From NCBI GenBank assembly GCA_028866995.1, contig JAGWHD010000002.1:1-64000 (forward strand): a stretch of 64,000 bases of DNA, read 5' to 3'. The DNA comes from Microcaldota archaeon. GTDB taxonomy: Archaea > Micrarchaeota > Micrarchaeia > Micrarchaeales > CABMGC01. The notes below the pieces were generated by a model. That model was not told the DNA's origin and did no database searches. It was given only the letters and a program-made list of their open reading frames with translations. A program made the position numbers and the translations under genes. How positions within the stretch are numbered: position 1 is the first letter of the stretch; each line of letters opens with the position of its first letter. This document shows positions 1 through 41,356 of the stretch, in pieces.

Positions 1-374
1 ATGCGCATTGTGGAGTTTGCGCGCCTGCTGCACGCCGTAGCGCTAGGGCCATTGTCTCAGTGCCCTTCTCGGGGCTCTTACTCTCATATCCCCTACGGGT
101 CAAAGGTATGGTGGGCCGTTACCCCGCCATCTGCCTGATCCGACGCAGTCCCATCGCAGGGCAGTAATGTTCCAATTCACAACTTTTTCGCACAGGACTC
201 CTTCCAGGTGTCCTGTACTATATGGAATTAGCCACAGTTTCCCGTGGGTATTCCCTTCCCTGCGGTAGATTGACCACGCGTTACTGAGCCGTACGCCGCC
301 CGTCATGTCGACGAGCTGACTTGCATGGCTGTCGAAATCTGATAGCAGTGTCCTCCAGCAGCATCGACTGGAGT
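1..374 (-). rRNA. 16S rRNA gene, 5' portion (runs off the left edge)
   Basis: Reverse complement reads ACTCCAGTCGATGCTGCTGGAGGACACTGCTATCAGATTTCGACAGCCATGCAAGTC...GGCGTACGGCTCAGTAACGCGTGG, the start of an archaeal SSU rRNA. Confidence 0.93.
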
Positions 375-26938: not shown

Positions 26939-28345
26939 TCATTTAGCAGTTGTCGGATCATTGCCGTGGTTGTTGTCCAGCTCCCTCTTGACCCTGCTCA
27001 GGTCCTTGTATGCGCCAAACTTTGACATCGTTTCCCTTCCGTAATCAAGGGCCCCTCCAAAGCTGACTGATGCCACTACTATGGCCATCCAGTGCAATGG
27101 CCTGTCAGTTACCAGCTCGCTGGCTCCTACTCCCGCGCCTCCGATGGCCAGGTAATTCATCATCACGTTTGCCTTCCTGTAGAATGCAAGCTTGGCGCCC
27201 TTCACTATGCTGACATAGTCTGAAGGGTCGCACCTGTAATGCTTTCCAGCGTCGTACATTATGCCAACTGCAACCTCTTCGGCCTTGCCCTCTGCATGCT
27301 TCCTCTTGTCCATTATGTGGTGCTTTATCCTGCCAACGTGCGCCTTCCTTGCTGCGACGATCTCAGGATCAGTTCCGTTCTCATGCCCGTTTTCAAGTAT
27401 CGCATCCATGTGCGCCACAGCATCGTCCAGCCTCTCTATGGCTTTCCTGTACTTCTTCTCCCTCTCTACCTTGTCCTTCTCGAACGTCGCCTCCGCGTGG
27501 TCCATCGATGACCTCTCGACATGGGCCAGCGCCTTTGCGGCCTCGCCCTTTATGCTGCCGATCAGCCTTCTTCCGTCGAAGAGATTGTGCACCGCAGCGC
27601 GCAGCAGCACTATACTCGTAGGCTCGCTGTCATTAGTTATCTTCTTCCTTGCGGCTATCGCGTTCTTGTACTTCTTGCGCATGCTCATGGCCTTGCTTCC
27701 ATACCTCGTCGTCCCCACGAAGCATGCGGCAGCCAATCCCTGGAGCACATCGTGAAGCGTGGATATGTCGTAGAAATACGTCGTTATTATCGATCCCGCA
27801 CCTGCAGCTGCGAGAGCGAAAGAGACTGCAGCGTTTTCGTAGAATATCGTGGCCCTCCTGAAGACAACGCCTATGGCGTCTGAGGCCTCTATGTCTGACT
27901 TGCCCAGGTCCTCCTTCCTCTTACCGGTGTTGAGCACTGCCATGTTCTTCGACATACGCGTCTCGTCCTTCTCCGTTGCCGCTATCAGTCCAGTAGCATA
28001 CTCATATTCCAGTTCCATCTCCTGCTTCATGTCGCTGCTTGCCTTTAGAGACACTGTCATCGACTCTACGAGCTCCTTCGCGTCCCTGTAGCAGTTCCTT
28101 GCGTCGTTAAGAAGCTCCAACTTCTCCTTTGTATCATGGCTGAACGTGGCGTACCATGAGAGCGTGTGCCCTGTGTAGTAAAGCTCCAGGGCCTCCTGTA
28201 TCAGCCTCGCATTCCTCCTGTCGTAGCCTCCAGCCCCTAGCACGGGTATTCTGTGCGACTGCACGAAAGCCTTGGCGAAGTCGGAGTTGGCAATACCTGA
28301 TACCTTCTCCCTTACTGGACTTCGCTGCCTCTCTAGCGTGCTCAA
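26939..28345 (-). CDS. Hypothetical large membrane-associated protein
   Basis: 468 aa ORF (TTG start), hydrophobic segments, TTTAAATA box upstream. Confidence 0.65.
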   Translation of the reverse strand: MSTLERQRSPVREKVSGIANSDFAKAFVQSHRIPVLGAGGYDRRNARLIQEALELYYTGHTLSWYATFSHDTKEKLELLNDARNCYRDAKELVESMTVSLKASSDMKQEMELEYEYATGLIAATEKDETRMSKNMAVLNTGKRKEDLGKSDIEASDAIGVVFRRATIFYENAAVSFALAAAGAGSIITTYFYDISTLHDVLQGLAAACFVGTTRYGSKAMSMRKKYKNAIAARKKITNDSEPTSIVLLRAAVHNLFDGRRLIGSIKGEAAKALAHVERSSMDHAEATFEKDKVEREKKYRKAIERLDDAVAHMDAILENGHENGTDPEIVAARKAHVGRIKHHIMDKRKHAEGKAEEVAVGIMYDAGKHYRCDPSDYVSIVKGAKLAFYRKANVMMNYLAIGGAGVGASELVTDRPLHWMAIVVASVSFGGALDYGRETMSKFGAYKDLSRVKRELDNNHGNDPTTAK

Positions 28346-28370: not shown

Positions 28371-28415
28371 TTCCTGGTATTTAAATGCTTAAAAACAGCC
28401 TGTTATTTGACGAAT
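28371..28415 (-). promoter_or_regulatory. 45-bp promoter module, copy 1 (TATA-like box plus upstream ATTCGTCAAAT)
   Basis: Plus strand TTCCTGGTATTTAAA-N18-TATTTGACGAAT. Confidence 0.6.
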
Positions 28416-28441: not shown

Positions 28442-29005
28442 TCATCTGCCCGTGCCAATGGCCTTATCCAGGCTTGCCTTTATCCCCCTTCCCATTCCCT
28501 TAAGCCATTCGCGTATGTCTATCTCAACTACCGTCCTCAGCCCTACCCTCTCAACCTGCTCCTTTCTCTGCCTCTCGGGCTTGAAGGTTGTTGATATCCT
28601 TGAGTATCCTAGTCTTTGCAGGTCCTTTGTGGTTATCGCCTCGAAGAGGTATGCGAAACCGCTCGCAGGGCCCTTGTCCAGCTTCTCCCTCGGATAATAG
28701 CTTTCAGGTGTCGTGGAACCATTGCCGCCCATGTAGAATATCTGGCCAACGTAGGCAAGGCCGTTCTTCTCTTTGCAGGCCCCGTAATGGATGCCGATGT
28801 CGCTCTGCCAAACCATGGGTATCCGTTTCAACGATATGAGGTCAAGGCCGAACGAGTTCGCATCGGAACTATGCGTATATACCATGCCCTCATCGAAGTC
28901 CCTTCTCAGGCCTGCGAAAGCTAGGTAGTAGGTGGCAGACCTCTGCCTGTATACTCCCAGGAATATCTCGTTGCCTTTCTGCCCTTTGGCTGCGAACCTG
29001 TCCAT
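28442..29005 (-). CDS. Unknown family X, copy 1
   Basis: ESYYPREKLDKGPASGFAYLFEAITTKDLQRLG...IDIREWLKGMGRGI; paralog of 30255-30854. Confidence 0.7.
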   Translation of the reverse strand: MDRFAAKGQKGNEIFLGVYRQRSATYYLAFAGLRRDFDEGMVYTHSSDANSFGLDLISLKRIPMVWQSDIGIHYGACKEKNGLAYVGQIFYMGGNGSTTPESYYPREKLDKGPASGFAYLFEAITTKDLQRLGYSRISTTFKPERQRKEQVERVGLRTVVEIDIREWLKGMGRGIKASLDKAIGTGR

Positions 29006-30254: not shown

Positions 30255-30854
30255 TCAACCTTCTGCGATCCTCTCCCTTATGCCCCTTCCGAGTCCCCTC
30301 ATCCATTCCCTGATCGTTGTCGCGCCTTCCGAGGGAAGGCCCACCCTCTCAAGCTGTGCCTTCCTGCTGTCGCTTGGCTCGAAGCCTGCAGTGGTGAACG
30401 CTGCACCGTTCCTTCTAACCTGGTTCGCTGTCAGCGCCTCTATGAAGTATGCTATCCTCTTTGCGGATCCGTACGATAGCTCGTCTCTCGGATAATACGT
30501 CTCTGCTGAAGCGAAGCCCTGCGTTCCGGCATATGATACGTATCCTACAGGGGCTATGCCATTCTCCCCTGCCTTGTCCATCACATGGCTCCTTATGTCG
30601 CGGCTCCAGACGCCCGGCACCCTCTTGACAGAAACGAGATCCAGCCTGCCAATGTACTCGGGAGGGACGAACAGGTTCCTGAACTTTATGTAATCCATAG
30701 GCTGCGTGAAGTCTGATCTGCGCATGGCTGCGTATATGAAATAGTCGTCAGTAGGGCCGGAGCGGTACACCGCTATGAAGGGTCTCCTGTCCCCGACGTT
30801 CTCGATGATTCTCTCGCGTACAGGCTGCGGCCTATGCGCGACAATCGTTGCCAT
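30255..30854 (-). CDS. Unknown family X, copy 2
   Basis: ETYYPRDELSYGSAKRIAYFIEALTANQVRRNG...ATTIREWMRGLGRGI; paralog of 28442-29005. Confidence 0.7.
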   Translation of the reverse strand: MATIVAHRPQPVRERIIENVGDRRPFIAVYRSGPTDDYFIYAAMRRSDFTQPMDYIKFRNLFVPPEYIGRLDLVSVKRVPGVWSRDIRSHVMDKAGENGIAPVGYVSYAGTQGFASAETYYPRDELSYGSAKRIAYFIEALTANQVRRNGAAFTTAGFEPSDSRKAQLERVGLPSEGATTIREWMRGLGRGIRERIAEG

Positions 30855-30965
30855 ATTACCTACATATCCATGCTTTTCCTCGTATTTAAAGATTGTAGGG
30901 ATAACGACGATTGCATAATTCCGCGGAGGAAAGCGTTATATAGCATCTGTTCCACGATACGATTC

Positions 30966-33813: not shown

Positions 33814-33884
33814 AGAGGATTAGTTTCCTTTCAACGTCTTGGGCGATAGCGCCCAAGACTCTTTCTTTTTAATTTTCTCCTGCG

Positions 33885-34508
33885 TTAGCCCCTGGCAGTT
33901 CTCTTGTTCTCGTACATCTCGCTGTCCGCTCCCTTTGTAAGCATAAGCATCCCTTCATCAACGTCCCTGATCTCGGCCCCGTTAGCGCTCCTGCTGCCCG
34001 CAGATATGCTAAATTCCGGTATTCCGTAAGCGTTCCTGAGATCAGCCTCGACAGCCTGCACGTCCTTAGATACCCTCCTTATGAAAGCCGCAGCGTCAGC
34101 GTTTGACGCGTTCGGCAGCCCGACTACTATCTCATCGCCCCCGTATCTGTATGCTATATCCGTATCTCTTACGAGCCCGGATATGACGTTGCCAAGCCTT
34201 GCTAGGGCATCGTTGCCCGCGTCGTGGCCGAAGGTGTCGTTAAGCTCCTTGAATCTGTTTATGTCGAAGAATACAACTGATATGTCGGTCTTGCCGTCAA
34301 TGGCTGACTTGACCAGCTTCCTAAGCTCGCGCTCTCCCTCGCCTGCCACGTGCAATCCTGTCCTCGCGTCCCTGCTGAGCCTCTTGTAAGCCATCCTGAG
34401 CCTCAGCAATTCCGCAGTAGTGTCAGGATCCCTGTCTGTAGACCTCCTGGCTAGCTGTCTCAGACCTTGTATCTGCCTGTCCTTCTTAATGTTCCTTCTG
34501 CCTTCCAT
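33885..34508 (-). CDS. GGDEF-domain protein (putative diguanylate-cyclase-like)
   Basis: VVFFDINRFKELNDTFGHDAGNDALARLGNVISGLVRDTDIAYRYGGDEIVVGLP. Confidence 0.88.
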   Translation of the reverse strand: MEGRRNIKKDRQIQGLRQLARRSTDRDPDTTAELLRLRMAYKRLSRDARTGLHVAGEGERELRKLVKSAIDGKTDISVVFFDINRFKELNDTFGHDAGNDALARLGNVISGLVRDTDIAYRYGGDEIVVGLPNASNADAAAFIRRVSKDVQAVEADLRNAYGIPEFSISAGSRSANGAEIRDVDEGMLMLTKGADSEMYENKRTARG

Positions 34509-34531
34509 AGGATTCAGCATATATGGTGTGC

Positions 34532-34576
34532 TTCCTGGTATTTAAAGAATAGAAAGCCGCATGTCATTTGACGAAT
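34532..34576 (-). promoter_or_regulatory. 45-bp promoter module, copy 2 (TATA-like box plus upstream ATTCGTCAAAT)
   Basis: Plus strand TTCCTGGTATTTAAA-N18-CATTTGACGAAT. Confidence 0.6.
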
Positions 34577-34582
34577 AGAATC

Positions 34583-35758
34583 TCACTTGCGCCCTTCGTC
34601 GCCCTCCAGCCTTTCTATCGTATCCCTTGCAGTCTGCGCCGAACTGTTCACAGCATTTTCGGCCCCTTCCTTGCCACCTGCGTTGTACTCGACCTTCAGC
34701 TCCAGGAACACGTGCCCCTTGAGGCGTATCACGTCGATTCCCATGCCTTCCAGTTCCGTGGTTCCGCTCTCCTTGTGTCTTTCGAGCCCTATCATTACCA
34801 CAGCCCTTATTGCATCCTCAGCGTGCCTTTCGCTGACAGGTATCCTGACCGCGTACATGCCGCTGCCGTTCTCTTCTGTCCTTCTCTCTACGAGCGCTAT
34901 GCCTGTCTCAAGGTCCTTCTCAGCGAAATACGTCCTCCTTCTCTCGTTACCCATATCCGGTATCGGCATTACCCCGATGTCATCCCCGCCTATATGCCTA
35001 GATACGGTGTCCTCAGCACCTTCGAGCGATATCCCGTTCTCGGATGCCTTCATCGCGACAGCCACGAATCTGGAAGCACGCCTGTCAAGGACAGCGTCCT
35101 CGAAGATTGCCGAGGAGAGCTTTTCGTCAGTCATGTCAAGCATGTCCTTCATGGTCTTTACGTAATCAAAGCTATTATGCGCGAGAAGAAGAAGCGCCCC
35201 GTACCTGCCGTACGCGTCCATGTTATTCCTCATGAAGTTCGAATCTGCGTTGCCCTCGATGCTCTCCATGCTGAAGGCATGCGTGCCGAGGCCGCGCAGG
35301 TCACGGAGCAGTTCCATGACTATGTTCGCTTCAATGGAGCCTTTCAGAGTGCCGTCGTCCCGCACAAGGACCATCGACATGGCCGTTGCGCAGAATTCCG
35401 ACGCGCAGCTGTTCGCTATCTCCCTCGCGAACGCCTCGCCGTCGTTCGGAGCGCCATTGACCATTCTGCCAGTCATGTCTCTGTAGTAGTGCACAACAGG
35501 CCTCAGCACAGCGCATATCCTGTCCTTCTCCTCGAAGCCGGCATTCTCTATGCTGCCGCTCACTGCAACCGTCCTGTTGTCGTAGAAGCTGATAAAGCCG
35601 TCCTTGGCACCCGCGTTCCATCTCTTGCCGTCTATGTATCCGATGTTCCCTCTCTTCACCAGGCTTCCGCTTATGGCGTTGAAATAGCTTACCGCAGCCT
35701 CAGCTATCTCGGTTATCGACCTTACCTTCGGTTCAGGTTTCCTTGTTTTCTCTATCAT
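34583..35758 (-). CDS. Hypothetical protein with a RHIGGDDIGVMPIP motif
   Basis: 391 aa ORF; GGDD-like turn encoded near 34979-34990; no confident family. Confidence 0.6.
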   Translation of the reverse strand: MIEKTRKPEPKVRSITEIAEAAVSYFNAISGSLVKRGNIGYIDGKRWNAGAKDGFISFYDNRTVAVSGSIENAGFEEKDRICAVLRPVVHYYRDMTGRMVNGAPNDGEAFAREIANSCASEFCATAMSMVLVRDDGTLKGSIEANIVMELLRDLRGLGTHAFSMESIEGNADSNFMRNNMDAYGRYGALLLLAHNSFDYVKTMKDMLDMTDEKLSSAIFEDAVLDRRASRFVAVAMKASENGISLEGAEDTVSRHIGGDDIGVMPIPDMGNERRRTYFAEKDLETGIALVERRTEENGSGMYAVRIPVSERHAEDAIRAVVMIGLERHKESGTTELEGMGIDVIRLKGHVFLELKVEYNAGGKEGAENAVNSSAQTARDTIERLEGDEGRK

Positions 35759-36658: not shown

Positions 36659-37750
36659 CTACAGGTTCACGTCTATGTTGAGCTCCTTCTTCAGCTCCCT
36701 GTACCTGTTCCTTATCGTGACCTCTGTCACTCCTGCGACATCGGCTACCTCCTTCTGAGTCCTCCTCTCGCCGACAAGTGCGCCAGCGATGTAGACCGCA
36801 GCTGCCGATACTCCGGTAGGGCTCCTTCCGCTTACCAGGCCCTTCTTCATGGCCTGCTTCAGGAGCACCATCGCCTTCTCCTGCGCCTCGCCGCTCAGCT
36901 TGAGCGCAGATACGTATCTTGGCACGTAGCTCGATGGGTCGGTCAAAGGTATCCTCAGTCCTAGCTCGTGGGCTATGACCCTGAAGCTCCTTCCTATCTC
37001 CTTCTTCGGGACTCCTGATATCGAAGCGATCTCGTCAAGCGTCCTTGGCATCCCGGCCCTTCTGCATACAGCGTAAAGCGCCGCGTTGACAACCGTCTCG
37101 ATGGGCCTTCCCCTTATGAGGTTGTTCTTGACGCACTGCCTGTAAAGGAGCGCAGACTGCTCCCTTATGTTCTCAGGAAGCCCGAGATAGCTTGCCACTC
37201 TGTTGAGTTCCGGCAGGGCCACGAGGTAGTTCCTCTCGCTCGAGCTTGCTATCGAGGCGCGCTTGTGCCACTTCCTCATCCTGTAGAGCTGCGCCTGCCT
37301 CTTCGAAGGGAGCTTAGTGCCCCTGATGTCCTTGTTGTACATGTCTATTTCAGTCACAAGGCCCTTGTTCGGCTTCATGTACTTGATGGGAGCTCCAGTC
37401 CTGGCCCTAGCGTTCCTCTGGTCGGTGTCGAAAGCCCTCCATTCAGGGCCGACGTCCGTGACGTTCTCCTCTATGACAAGGCCGCAGTTGTTGCAGATGT
37501 ACTCTCCCTTGTCGTTGTCGAATATGATATCGTTGCTGCCGCAGCTTGGGCAGTGCTTCGCCTCGTCGCGCCTCGATGAGAAGCCCTTCCCGAGGGTCTC
37601 TACGTCAAGCATGGCCTCAGTCTTGAATACAGGTTCAGCCTCCTGCTGCGCCTCCCTGTGCTGCATCTGCGCTACAGGCCTTGGCGCGGCTCTGGATCCG
37701 CTTGAAGTTGCCTTTGTCTTTTTTGTCTTTGATTTTGCCATTTCTACCAC
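36659..37750 (-). CDS. tfb: Transcription initiation factor IIB (TFB)
   Basis: Zn ribbon HCPSCGSNDIIFDNDKGEYICNNCGLVIEE plus two cyclin-like repeats. Confidence 0.95.
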   Translation of the reverse strand: MVEMAKSKTKKTKATSSGSRAAPRPVAQMQHREAQQEAEPVFKTEAMLDVETLGKGFSSRRDEAKHCPSCGSNDIIFDNDKGEYICNNCGLVIEENVTDVGPEWRAFDTDQRNARARTGAPIKYMKPNKGLVTEIDMYNKDIRGTKLPSKRQAQLYRMRKWHKRASIASSSERNYLVALPELNRVASYLGLPENIREQSALLYRQCVKNNLIRGRPIETVVNAALYAVCRRAGMPRTLDEIASISGVPKKEIGRSFRVIAHELGLRIPLTDPSSYVPRYVSALKLSGEAQEKAMVLLKQAMKKGLVSGRSPTGVSAAAVYIAGALVGERRTQKEVADVAGVTEVTIRNRYRELKKELNIDVNL

Positions 37751-37845: not shown

Positions 37846-39030
37846 TCAAGCCGCTTTTCGAAGCGCCCGTTCCGCTTTAGTCGTAGCGACCTTCGCCTGC
37901 GCTATCTCGGCTGCAGTTTTCCTCATCTCCTTCTCCTCGTCTTCTGTTATTAGCCCTGCAGCCAAGAGCAGCCTGTAGTGGCTCTTGCCGTACATGTCGT
38001 ACAGCCCCCCAAGGCCGCTTTCCTTCATGCGCGTTGCCATCTCGTCCCTCGTTATCTTGACAGGCGCCTTGCCTATCCTGTCGGCAATCCACCATACCGC
38101 TTCAATGACATTGTCGGAATTGTTGAAAAAGCCCGGCTGCACCCTGTTCATCTCCCATGGCCTGATGTTGAGCTCGGGATAGGCCTCCTGCACTGCCTGG
38201 TAAGGGCTTGAATTATAATAATGATACAACATTCCGTCCAGCCTGTGCCTCTTGAAATGCGACCTCTTGAGTTTCCTGGGGTCCTTCACAGTCCTCTCCA
38301 CCAGCCACCTTGTCGCCTCTATTCGTGTATCCTTGGATTCGTACGTATGGTTCGGGGTGTGCTTCATCTCCCATGGCCTGATCTTGAGCTCGGGATAGGC
38401 CTCGCTCACCGCAGCGTAGGGGCTGTTGTTGTAGTATGTCATCAGCGCTCTCAGTCTGTTGTTTATGAAATGATCCCAGGTGATATCCCTGGGCTTGATG
38501 CGCAGTTTCTCCTCAAGCAAGTCTCTTGTTGCATTTATCCTGTTCGTTGCATTTTCAAAGTAATGCGCAGGCGTGACGAGCATCTCCCATGGCCTGATGT
38601 TGAGCTCGGGGAATGCGCTGGAGACCGCCTTGTAAGGGCTGCCATTGTAGTATTCATTCAACATCCCTTCCAGCCTGTTGTTGATGAAATGGTCCTGGGT
38701 AGCATCTTTGGGGTCTATCCTGAGCACCTGCAGGAAAAGGAACCTAATGGCATCCGAACGAGCCTTTGGTCTGGAATCCCATTCCGCATGAGTCAGTTTC
38801 CGTTCCCCATTATCATGCTTGTACCAACCCATCACAATCCAGAAATCGTCCATGGTTCTGGGCTTCCTGGGTCTTATTATTGGCACCCCGTCTATTATCA
38901 CCTTCTCATAATCCCGTCTCAGGTCTTCTATTGTGGTGCCGCTGGGCCTCTTGCTTGATTTTAGGAGTTGCCTTAGCTCATGCTCGTCAAGGTCTCGAGG
39001 TCTGCGTGTAGTAGCCGCAAGGTGAGCCAT
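37846..39030 (-). CDS. Tandem-repeat protein (72-aa repeats ending in SPYxAVxEAYPELxIRPWEM)
   Basis: Three full repeats and one degenerate copy; nucleotide anchors CATCTCCCATGGCCTGAT at 38149, 38365 and 38581. Confidence 0.85.
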   Translation of the reverse strand: MAHLAATTRRPRDLDEHELRQLLKSSKRPSGTTIEDLRRDYEKVIIDGVPIIRPRKPRTMDDFWIVMGWYKHDNGERKLTHAEWDSRPKARSDAIRFLFLQVLRIDPKDATQDHFINNRLEGMLNEYYNGSPYKAVSSAFPELNIRPWEMLVTPAHYFENATNRINATRDLLEEKLRIKPRDITWDHFINNRLRALMTYYNNSPYAAVSEAYPELKIRPWEMKHTPNHTYESKDTRIEATRWLVERTVKDPRKLKRSHFKRHRLDGMLYHYYNSSPYQAVQEAYPELNIRPWEMNRVQPGFFNNSDNVIEAVWWIADRIGKAPVKITRDEMATRMKESGLGGLYDMYGKSHYRLLLAAGLITEDEEKEMRKTAAEIAQAKVATTKAERALRKAA

Positions 39031-39089: not shown

Positions 39090-40421
39090 ATGGTTGGCGC
39101 GGTCCTTGCTGACAGGGCGCTCATGGGGTTCTCTCTCGGGGTGCACATAATCCTTGCCGTGATAGGCATAGCCCTGCCGCTGATAATACTGCTTTCAGAG
39201 ATCATGTACGCGAGGACCAAGGACAAGGCATACAGGGCGCTCTCCAAGAGGCTGTCCACAGTCCTTGTGATACTCTTCGCAGTGGGCACAGCATCAGGAA
39301 CACTGGTGGCTCTGGAGCTCGCTGTACTGTGGCCCAAGTTCATGGCGCTTGTGGGGCAGGTTGCCATACTTCCGTTCTACGTCGAAGCCTTCGCCTTCTT
39401 CGGCGAGGCGATATTCCTTTCAGCGTTCCTCTACTCCTATCACAGGAACATGGACAACTCGAGAGCGAGGATGCTCTTCATGGCGATAGTCGCTGTGTGC
39501 GCCGCGCTGTCAGGGGCGCTGATAACGATGGTGAACGCTTTCATGAACACGCCCGCGGGTTTCGACATACAGCAGTACCTGCTCAACGGGACGATAACCG
39601 ATGTGCATCCTCTTGCTGCGTTCAATACGCCTTCTACAGGGATAGAGGTGCTCCATGTCCTTTCAACATCGTACATGGTTGGCGCTTTCCTGTTCCTGGC
39701 ATATGTCTGCTACAGGCTGCTTAAGGAGAACGATGCGCTGAGGCGCGAGTACTACAGGAAGGCGGCGAGGCTTATCTTCTGGGTCGTGCTCATAGCGACT
39801 GTCATAGCGGTATACAGCGGCATACAGTCTATAGCTTCGATGTACTACCTGCAGCCTGAGAAGTTCGCAGCGATAGAGGGCGACATGATAGCCCAGGCAT
39901 ACGCTCCCGAGTACCTAGGCGGCATACCTGTCAACGGCACGCTGAAATATTACATAGCTATACCTGGCCTTCAATCCATACTGGCTACAGGAAGCCCATC
40001 AGGAACCGTCCCCGGGCTTGAGCAGTATCCGCAGAGCACGTGGCCGCCGCTCATAGTGCATACGATGTTCGACCCTCTGGTCGGCAGCGGCTTCGCTATA
40101 GGCGCGCTGCTTGCACTGGTCCTGCTGATGATGGTTCTGAAGAGGAGGCCTTTCGAGAGCAGGCTGTTACTGTACCTCATGATAATCGCGGGGATGCTGT
40201 CGCTCTTCCTGCTGGAGGACGGATGGGCTATGGCCGAGATAGGCAGGCAGCCTTGGATAATATACAATGTCATGAGCGTGAGCGACGCTGCCAACGCCTC
40301 TCCCCAGGTCATACCGATAGCCGCTGCTCTCATGCTCTTCTATGCAGTGATAATGCCCTTCACGCTCCTTGTACTGCGAAGGATATTCGATGGCAGGCAG
40401 CTCGAGGCTGATATGCGATGA
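39090..40421 (+). CDS. cydA: Cytochrome bd ubiquinol oxidase subunit I
   Basis: DRALMGFSLGVHIILAVIGIALPL; EDGWAMAEIGRQPWIIYNVM. Confidence 0.92.
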   Translation: MVGAVLADRALMGFSLGVHIILAVIGIALPLIILLSEIMYARTKDKAYRALSKRLSTVLVILFAVGTASGTLVALELAVLWPKFMALVGQVAILPFYVEAFAFFGEAIFLSAFLYSYHRNMDNSRARMLFMAIVAVCAALSGALITMVNAFMNTPAGFDIQQYLLNGTITDVHPLAAFNTPSTGIEVLHVLSTSYMVGAFLFLAYVCYRLLKENDALRREYYRKAARLIFWVVLIATVIAVYSGIQSIASMYYLQPEKFAAIEGDMIAQAYAPEYLGGIPVNGTLKYYIAIPGLQSILATGSPSGTVPGLEQYPQSTWPPLIVHTMFDPLVGSGFAIGALLALVLLMMVLKRRPFESRLLLYLMIIAGMLSLFLLEDGWAMAEIGRQPWIIYNVMSVSDAANASPQVIPIAAALMLFYAVIMPFTLLVLRRIFDGRQLEADMR

Positions 40422-41356
40422 ACGCGCTAGCTATACTTAACTATTCCATACTTGCGGCATTCCTCAGCATGTTCGTGCTCGAGGTCGGCATAGCCATGCT
40501 CATGCTGTTCAAGGATAGCTACAGCGCACGCATGAGAAGGTACCTTATGCCTATATGGGAGCTGGCAGGCACGACAGCCGTGTTCTACGTCGTCAACCTT
40601 ATAGCAACATATCCAGGCATGCTCAACGTGATAGGCAACGCTTACATGGCGCCGCTTCTCATAGCCGCGCTCTTCCTGCTCCTGCGCAACGCATTCCTCT
40701 CATATTCCGCCTATTCCGGGGCCGAGTTAAAGGCATATACCGCGATATACTCGCTTTCCACGATAGCGATAGCTGTGATAGCGCTAACTGTCCTGAGCTC
40801 TGCGGCTACGGGCTCAGGCCTAGGCCCGGCTCTTGGCAGCCTGGACATCGCAGCAGCGTTCCTCAGCCCGTTCAACATCGTCCTGATCATAGGCACTGTG
40901 CTTGTTGCGCTCTCCTTTGCGATAGCCGCCTTCGAGATGGATGACCTTAGGGGCGTCGGAGCAGGAGCAGCCCTCTTCGGAATCGCGCTGCTGCTTTTCG
41001 GCACGTATTTCCTCCTAGGCGCAGTGCAGCTGTCAGGACAGTCGTCGCTTGCAAGGATTGCTGCTGCAGCGGCCCTTGCGATGGCCGCGCTCTTCTGCTA
41101 CAAGAGAAAGAGGGTCGCGAAGTATGCGTACGCCATCCTGTTGTTCATTGGCATCCTGCTGCTGGAAGCTGAGCAGTATCCTTACGTATTCGGCAACGTT
41201 GACATAACATCGTATGCCAACAACTCCGGAATAGCCGGGTACGAACTCGTAATAACAGCTGTAGGCGGCCTCCTACTGCTAGCGTCTGTCGCATACCTTG
41301 TCTATTCGGTATACCTGAAGAAAGAGCCCGCCCCTATCCCTTCCTCGAAGGCATGA
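40418..41356 (+). CDS. cydB: Cytochrome bd oxidase subunit II
   Basis: Multi-TM, overlaps the cydA stop by 4 nt (ATGA). Confidence 0.88.
   Translation: MNALAILNYSILAAFLSMFVLEVGIAMLMLFKDSYSARMRRYLMPIWELAGTTAVFYVVNLIATYPGMLNVIGNAYMAPLLIAALFLLLRNAFLSYSAYSGAELKAYTAIYSLSTIAIAVIALTVLSSAATGSGLGPALGSLDIAAAFLSPFNIVLIIGTVLVALSFAIAAFEMDDLRGVGAGAALFGIALLLFGTYFLLGAVQLSGQSSLARIAAAAALAMAALFCYKRKRVAKYAYAILLFIGILLLEAEQYPYVFGNVDITSYANNSGIAGYELVITAVGGLLLLASVAYLVYSVYLKKEPAPIPSSKA

Follow-up and report, generated by a model that had tools for sequence, protein, structure and literature searches.

Whether archaea use c-di-GMP is a standing question. Reviews and censuses have described GGDEF as almost absent from archaea (PMC5847659, PMC10086821), archaeal cases were said to need confirmation (PMC10086821), and it was hypothesized that c-di-GMP is toxic in the archaeal-eukaryotic line (PMC2904730). 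In 2018, one archaeal GGDEF and an inactivated WspR-like protein were known (PMC5847659). More than 300 archaeal GGDEF BLAST matches, many of them from Asgard and DPANN archaea, were reported in 2021 (PMC8646023), and the accessible text of a 2023 study (PMC9938205) counted diguanylate cyclases among ultra-small prokaryotes with the archaea not separated. That archaeal GGDEF genes exist, including DPANN BLAST matches, is already known. What is added here, by comparison of one such gene with its relatives, is apparently intact sites, context, what looks like long residence, missing partners and an Asp-to-Asn change.

The gene lies in the window, the whole 64,000-nucleotide stretch of DNA that was analysed. 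Its product resembles the diguanylate cyclases PleD and WspR in its fold, its catalytic Asp, Lys and Asn, its GG[D/E]E motif, its RxxD inhibitory (I) site and the C-terminal K442 and R446. However, unlike these enzymes, it carries no REC or other sensor domain, it has Asn for Asp344 and GGDEI for GGDEF, and its archaeal host is without EAL, PilZ, MshEN or HD-GYP. In the Hypr GGDEF enzymes, such as the 3',3'-cGAMP synthase GacA, the same base-reading residue is changed within the GGDE form (PMC6456294); that class has Ser or Thr at position 344 with GGDE[F/Y], whereas the window protein has Asn and GGDEI and falls outside it. The WspR-like protein of Candidatus Micrarchaeum acidiphilum, a REC domain with an inactivated GGDEF (PMC5847659), shares GGDEF homology and a similar archaeal host. 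The window's genome has its own such protein, on contig C11, but the window gene encodes a separate short protein with the site intact and no REC domain. The Asgard and DPANN BLAST matches are genes of the same kind, and their residues, context, synteny and partners are not given in the available part of PMC8646023. The MK0296-type archaeal GGDEF relatives share the palm fold and acidic residues; going by their description only, they are not conventional signalling GGDEF domains (PMC2904730), whereas the window protein scores as conventional.

Identity and fold of the GGDEF protein

The GGDEF gene occupies 33885..34520 on the minus strand, an ORF of 211 residues. The second in-frame ATG, at 34508, is aligned with an ATG of the sister species (G001), so that a start at either 34520 or 34508 is possible, and 34508 may well be the true one. 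The ORF scored 96.7 bits against Pfam PF00990 (E = 1.6e-27, cut-off 23.8) and 100 bits against NCBIfam TIGR00254 (cut-off 37.4), passing both family cut-offs, and its best solved relative was PleD (E = 3e-17). For an AlphaFold2 model that drew on 25 relatives, the mean pLDDT was 90, with values of 95-98 across most of the catalytic domain. When the model was compared with the PDB by Foldseek, it matched WspR (9t28, target TM 0.84, rmsd 1.5) and also GcbC and PleD. The window ORF is a conventional GGDEF domain, far beyond chance. The preliminary description had proposed a GGDEF-like cyclase domain in an archaeal genome, and the family scores, the fold and the archaeal anchoring of the locus bear this out; the motifs FFDINRFKELND, GHDAGN, RDTD and GGDEI indeed fall at the diguanylate-cyclase positions.

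The secondary structure of the model places helices at the amino end, about residues 3-47 (34386..34520, minus strand), which are a probable stalk. No sensor domain was recognised in the protein, and Pfam gave no second domain.

Active site and proposed function

The active site was compared by alignment to PleD, and PleD numbering is used. The segment FDINRFKELND (34236..34268, minus strand) carries the metal-binding Asp (D327), the phosphate Lys (K332) and the guanine-contact Asn (N335). The metal and phosphate positions D327, K332, E370, E371 and K442 read D, K, D, E and K in the window protein, and R366, K442 and R446 are all kept. The signature itself is GGDEI (34128..34142, minus strand), in which Ile replaces the Phe of the GG[D/E]EF motif, and RDTD (34158..34169, minus strand) is an intact RxxD I-site. 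Judged by these residues, the active site is apparently functional. Of the guanine-contact positions, N335 is kept and D344 is replaced by Asn103 (34212..34214, minus strand), a position at which the sister species has Asp. In PleD, D344 reads the Watson-Crick face of guanine. On general chemical grounds, Asn is better suited to adenine than to guanine.

The same residues were followed through 32 archaeal domains of the order; the proteins that carry them are mostly 19-31% identical to the window protein over their whole length. D327, N335 and R359 were present in all 32 and D362 in 30. The I-site Arg was found in 32 of 32 domains, compared with 16 of the 39 bacterial domains, a small sample drawn from nine genomes. 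Some relatives have damaged GGDEF motifs (MTGDEF, GADEF, WRDEF).

On balance, we think it somewhat probable that the protein is a stand-alone GGDEF c-di-GMP synthase, dimeric and inhibited through its I-site, which would be set by transcription and act through a receptor that is not of a common bacterial type. We infer its catalysis, product, dimerization, transcriptional control and any receptor as follows. Two copies would dimerize, probably via the N-terminal helices, each with one NTP; two GTP would be joined head to tail to give 3',5'-cyclic di-GMP, and product bound at the RxxD site would restrain the enzyme. Since there is no sensor domain, the level of the enzyme is probably set by transcription, which would act through a TATA promoter and a conserved palindromic block. 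Candidate receptors would be lineage-specific proteins, for example the core REC-degenerate-GGDEF regulator or an RCK potassium channel with two helices. The lineage could do without such a signal, as the gene is absent from more than half of the relatives. Weighing against a c-di-GMP synthase are the change of Asp344 to Asn, the lack of known-type partners and the damaged motifs of some relatives. The genomes of the lineage are about 1 Mb or less, and in them the synthase looks intact, archaeal-anchored and common to several genera, without the usual partners. An intact archaeal synthase would reduce the c-di-GMP question to a simple expression test and would point to new receptors.

It is also conceivable, but unlikely, that the protein is active as a cyclase but forms a different product, Asn for Asp344 admitting adenine or another purine and leading to cGAMP, c-di-AMP or a mixture. 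Asn was found at this position in 7 of 47 archaeal domains from at least three lineages (the window, G002/G028 and the family f7 clade), whereas none of the 39 bacterial domains had it, a distribution that favours a changed product. Moreover, Ser at the same residue widens purine use in the Hypr enzymes and underlies their cGAMP synthesis, always with the GGDE motif, which the window protein also has (PMC6456294, available part). However, Asn at this position is not mentioned or discussed in the available part of that paper, and the I-site, a c-di-GMP reader in bacteria, is intact in the window protein. The Asp of the sister species also speaks against a changed product and indicates that the Asn change is recent within the genus. 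The Asn of the family f7 clade (L064, L072, L073, L081) is a case separate from that of the window.

Partners and the second GGDEF protein

No EAL domain was found in the window's own genome or in 60 relatives; among 245 genomes of the phylum there was a single EAL match above the cut-off, which is probably a contaminant, and a single sub-threshold match. PilZ was absent from all 245 phylum genomes and MshEN from the 60 relatives. HD_5 (HD-GYP) exceeded the cut-off in 18 of the 245, none of them in the window's order. The preliminary description had seen no EAL or PilZ partner near the gene, a statement that holds genome-wide and in the 60 relatives, and the effector search that it proposed returned, as run, no EAL, PilZ or MshEN in these relatives and no HD-GYP in the order. 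A complete c-di-GMP pathway is not seen, since no hydrolase or receptor of a known type was found in the order.

A 2TM-RCK (TrkA_N) potassium channel was present in 22 of 25 GGDEF genomes versus 11 of 35 others (Fisher p = 1.6e-5), and in 8 genomes the channel and GGDEF genes are no more than about 7 kb apart. The channel is found near GGDEF in several genera (loci L048, L050, L044, L046, L053-L057). The link between GGDEF and the channel was nevertheless set aside, as a proxy species tree left too few independent pairs for significance. A broader and rather doubtful idea is that the lineage has a cyclic-dinucleotide signal of its own, with a long-kept GGDEF synthase whose product would be altered by the Asp344-to-Asn change in some lineages; its receptor, perhaps the nearby RCK channel, and its breakdown enzyme would be of non-bacterial type.

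The second GGDEF protein of the window's genome is a wHTH-REC-degenerate-GGDEF response regulator of 416 residues (G000, contig C11, 296784-298031; L002, L083). It combines an intact receiver with a GGDEF domain that has lost its active site, and its structural model resembles WspR and PleD across two domains, with moderate confidence. It was found in 56 of 60 relatives at about 47-89% identity, the sister protein being 89% identical. Doubt had been expressed whether REC-inactivated-GGDEF regulators are genuine archaeal proteins (PMC5847659), and for the window's order these findings answer it.

The degenerate site of this regulator lends some weight to the view that the window protein is itself a catalytically dead GGDEF, serving as a receptor for c-di-GMP or GTP or as a scaffold, and Asn at 344 together with Ile in GGDEI could reduce activity. 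However, the metal- and phosphate-binding residues are all kept, and a second intact cyclase that could supply such a receptor was not found in the window's genome. A dead protein is improbable on these grounds.

Promoter and neighbouring genes

The promoter through which the putative c-di-GMP synthase would be controlled contains a 19-bp block, TTCGTCAAATGACATGCGG (34557..34575, minus strand), which is identical in the sister species and contains the palindrome GTCA-AA-TGAC. It is followed by TTTAAATA (CTTTAAATA), an archaeal TATA-box-like element at 34539..34546 (minus strand), which lies about 20-26 nt upstream of the ATG at 34520. Alignment revealed a second copy of this layout (28371..28414, minus strand) that precedes a 468-aa gene at 26939-28345. 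The 45-bp layout with the block TTCGTCAAATNACANGC and TTTAAATACCAGGAA is common to the GGDEF gene (34532-34575) and the 468-aa gene (28371-28414), and the spaced pattern gave 2 matches versus 0 expected by chance. The common layout suggests joint regulation of the two genes. A TATA variant without the block occurs at 30876-30890, upstream of a 199-aa gene. At the other end, the GGDEF gene and a Yip1-like gene converge on a perfect hairpin, GTCTTGGGCG-CTAT-CGCCCAAGAC (33836-33859), which is T-rich on its plus-strand side and is a likely terminator.

The 391-aa neighbour (34583-35758) contains RHIGGDDIGV and was considered as a second degenerate GGDEF. This candidate was rejected; the sister gene reads RHIGRHDYEV and there is no Pfam match, indicating that the resemblance is due to chance. 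The proteins encoded at 28442-29005 and 30255-30854 on the minus strand are paralogues of each other and gave no Pfam match; they are duplicated in the sister genome too. An internal repeat (..NNRLxxLMxYYNxSPYxAVSEAYPELxIRPWEM..) occurs three to four times in a 394-aa protein (37846-39030, minus strand), which is 68% identical in the sister genome. This small archaeal genome also carries genes for aerobic respiration: cytochrome bd oxidase subunit I is followed by a membrane protein, the probable subunit II, at 39090-41356 (plus strand).

A defence island was also considered for the region and rejected because PADLOC was blank for the GGDEF gene and most of its neighbours, the only defence genes detected near it being weak matches of a small kinase. 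The gene thus has none of the defence neighbours that would mark CRISPR/CBASS-type nucleotide signalling. The same result bears on another reading, that the protein carries out nucleotidyl transfer on RNA or single nucleotides and makes no second messenger. The palm fold is common to GGDEF, Thg1 and CRISPR polymerases, and there are proposals of RNA-directed roles (PMC2904730). However, apart from those kinase matches no defence system was found nearby, and N335, the GHxxG turn and RxxD, by which signalling GGDEF domains are distinguished, are kept, which makes nucleotidyl transfer of this sort very unlikely.

Archaeal anchoring, distribution and origin

A partial archaeal SSU rRNA lies at the edge of the window (1..374, minus strand; Rfam RF01959, 294 bits). 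The gene for transcription initiation factor IIB (TFB; 36659..37750, minus strand; NCBIfam NF001658, 440.9 bits) is 2 kb from the GGDEF gene, and its product is about 94% identical to the TFB of the sister species. The window is syntenic with that species from 28 to 45 kb. The GC content of the GGDEF gene is 0.539, that of the window 0.533 and that of other pieces of the contig about 0.50-0.53. Comparison of the GGDEF gene between the window and the sister species (60% identity) gave a dN of 0.33 and a dS of about 2.2, which is saturated; these values suggest purifying selection.

Strong GGDEF matches (E < 1e-10) were obtained in 24 of 60 relatives, and 27 of the 60 exceeded the Pfam cut-off when weaker matches of a second family were counted. 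Within the family to which the window belongs, several genera have GGDEF in one conserved gene block, in the order methyltransferase, small ORF, GGDEF, unknown protein, AP endonuclease, HerA-like ATPase, aldo-keto reductase and K+ channel. Another relative (G033) likewise has GGDEF on the downstream side of TFB, with intervening genes. The distribution and the neighbourhoods fit a long-resident gene that has undergone losses and moves. The GGDEF tree was poorly resolved, although the window and sister sequences formed a pair (100/100), and a single clade for the GGDEF domains of the order was neither shown nor rejected (AU p = 0.50). With such a tree, an ancient bacterial origin of the gene is possible.

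GGDEF proteins had been called sparse in archaea in the preliminary description, which is out of date for this phylum, where 94 of 245 genomes exceeded the Pfam cut-off. Its suggestion of horizontal acquisition has to be divided: a recent acquisition or an oddity is not supported, given the 24 relatives, the neighbourhoods, the synteny, the promoter and the normal GC, and an ancient transfer from bacteria may have occurred. Bacterial contamination of the assembly, which that description had named as a ground for refutation, or a very recent bacterial transfer is scarcely credible. In its favour, GGDEF is typical of bacteria and one GGDEF-EAL gene of the phylum (G169) does sit among bacterial sequences in the tree, but the archaeal 16S rRNA in the window, the TFB gene 2 kb away, the sister synteny, the identical upstream block with its TATA box and the genome-like GC indicate that the window gene is not a contaminant.

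The G169 gene, on contig C42 (L061/L113) of an archaeal MAG, encodes an 863-aa GGDEF-EAL fusion. The idea that this fusion represents an archaeal pathway was rejected, since its GGDEF clusters with bacterial ones in the tree, and the contig is therefore probably a contaminating one.
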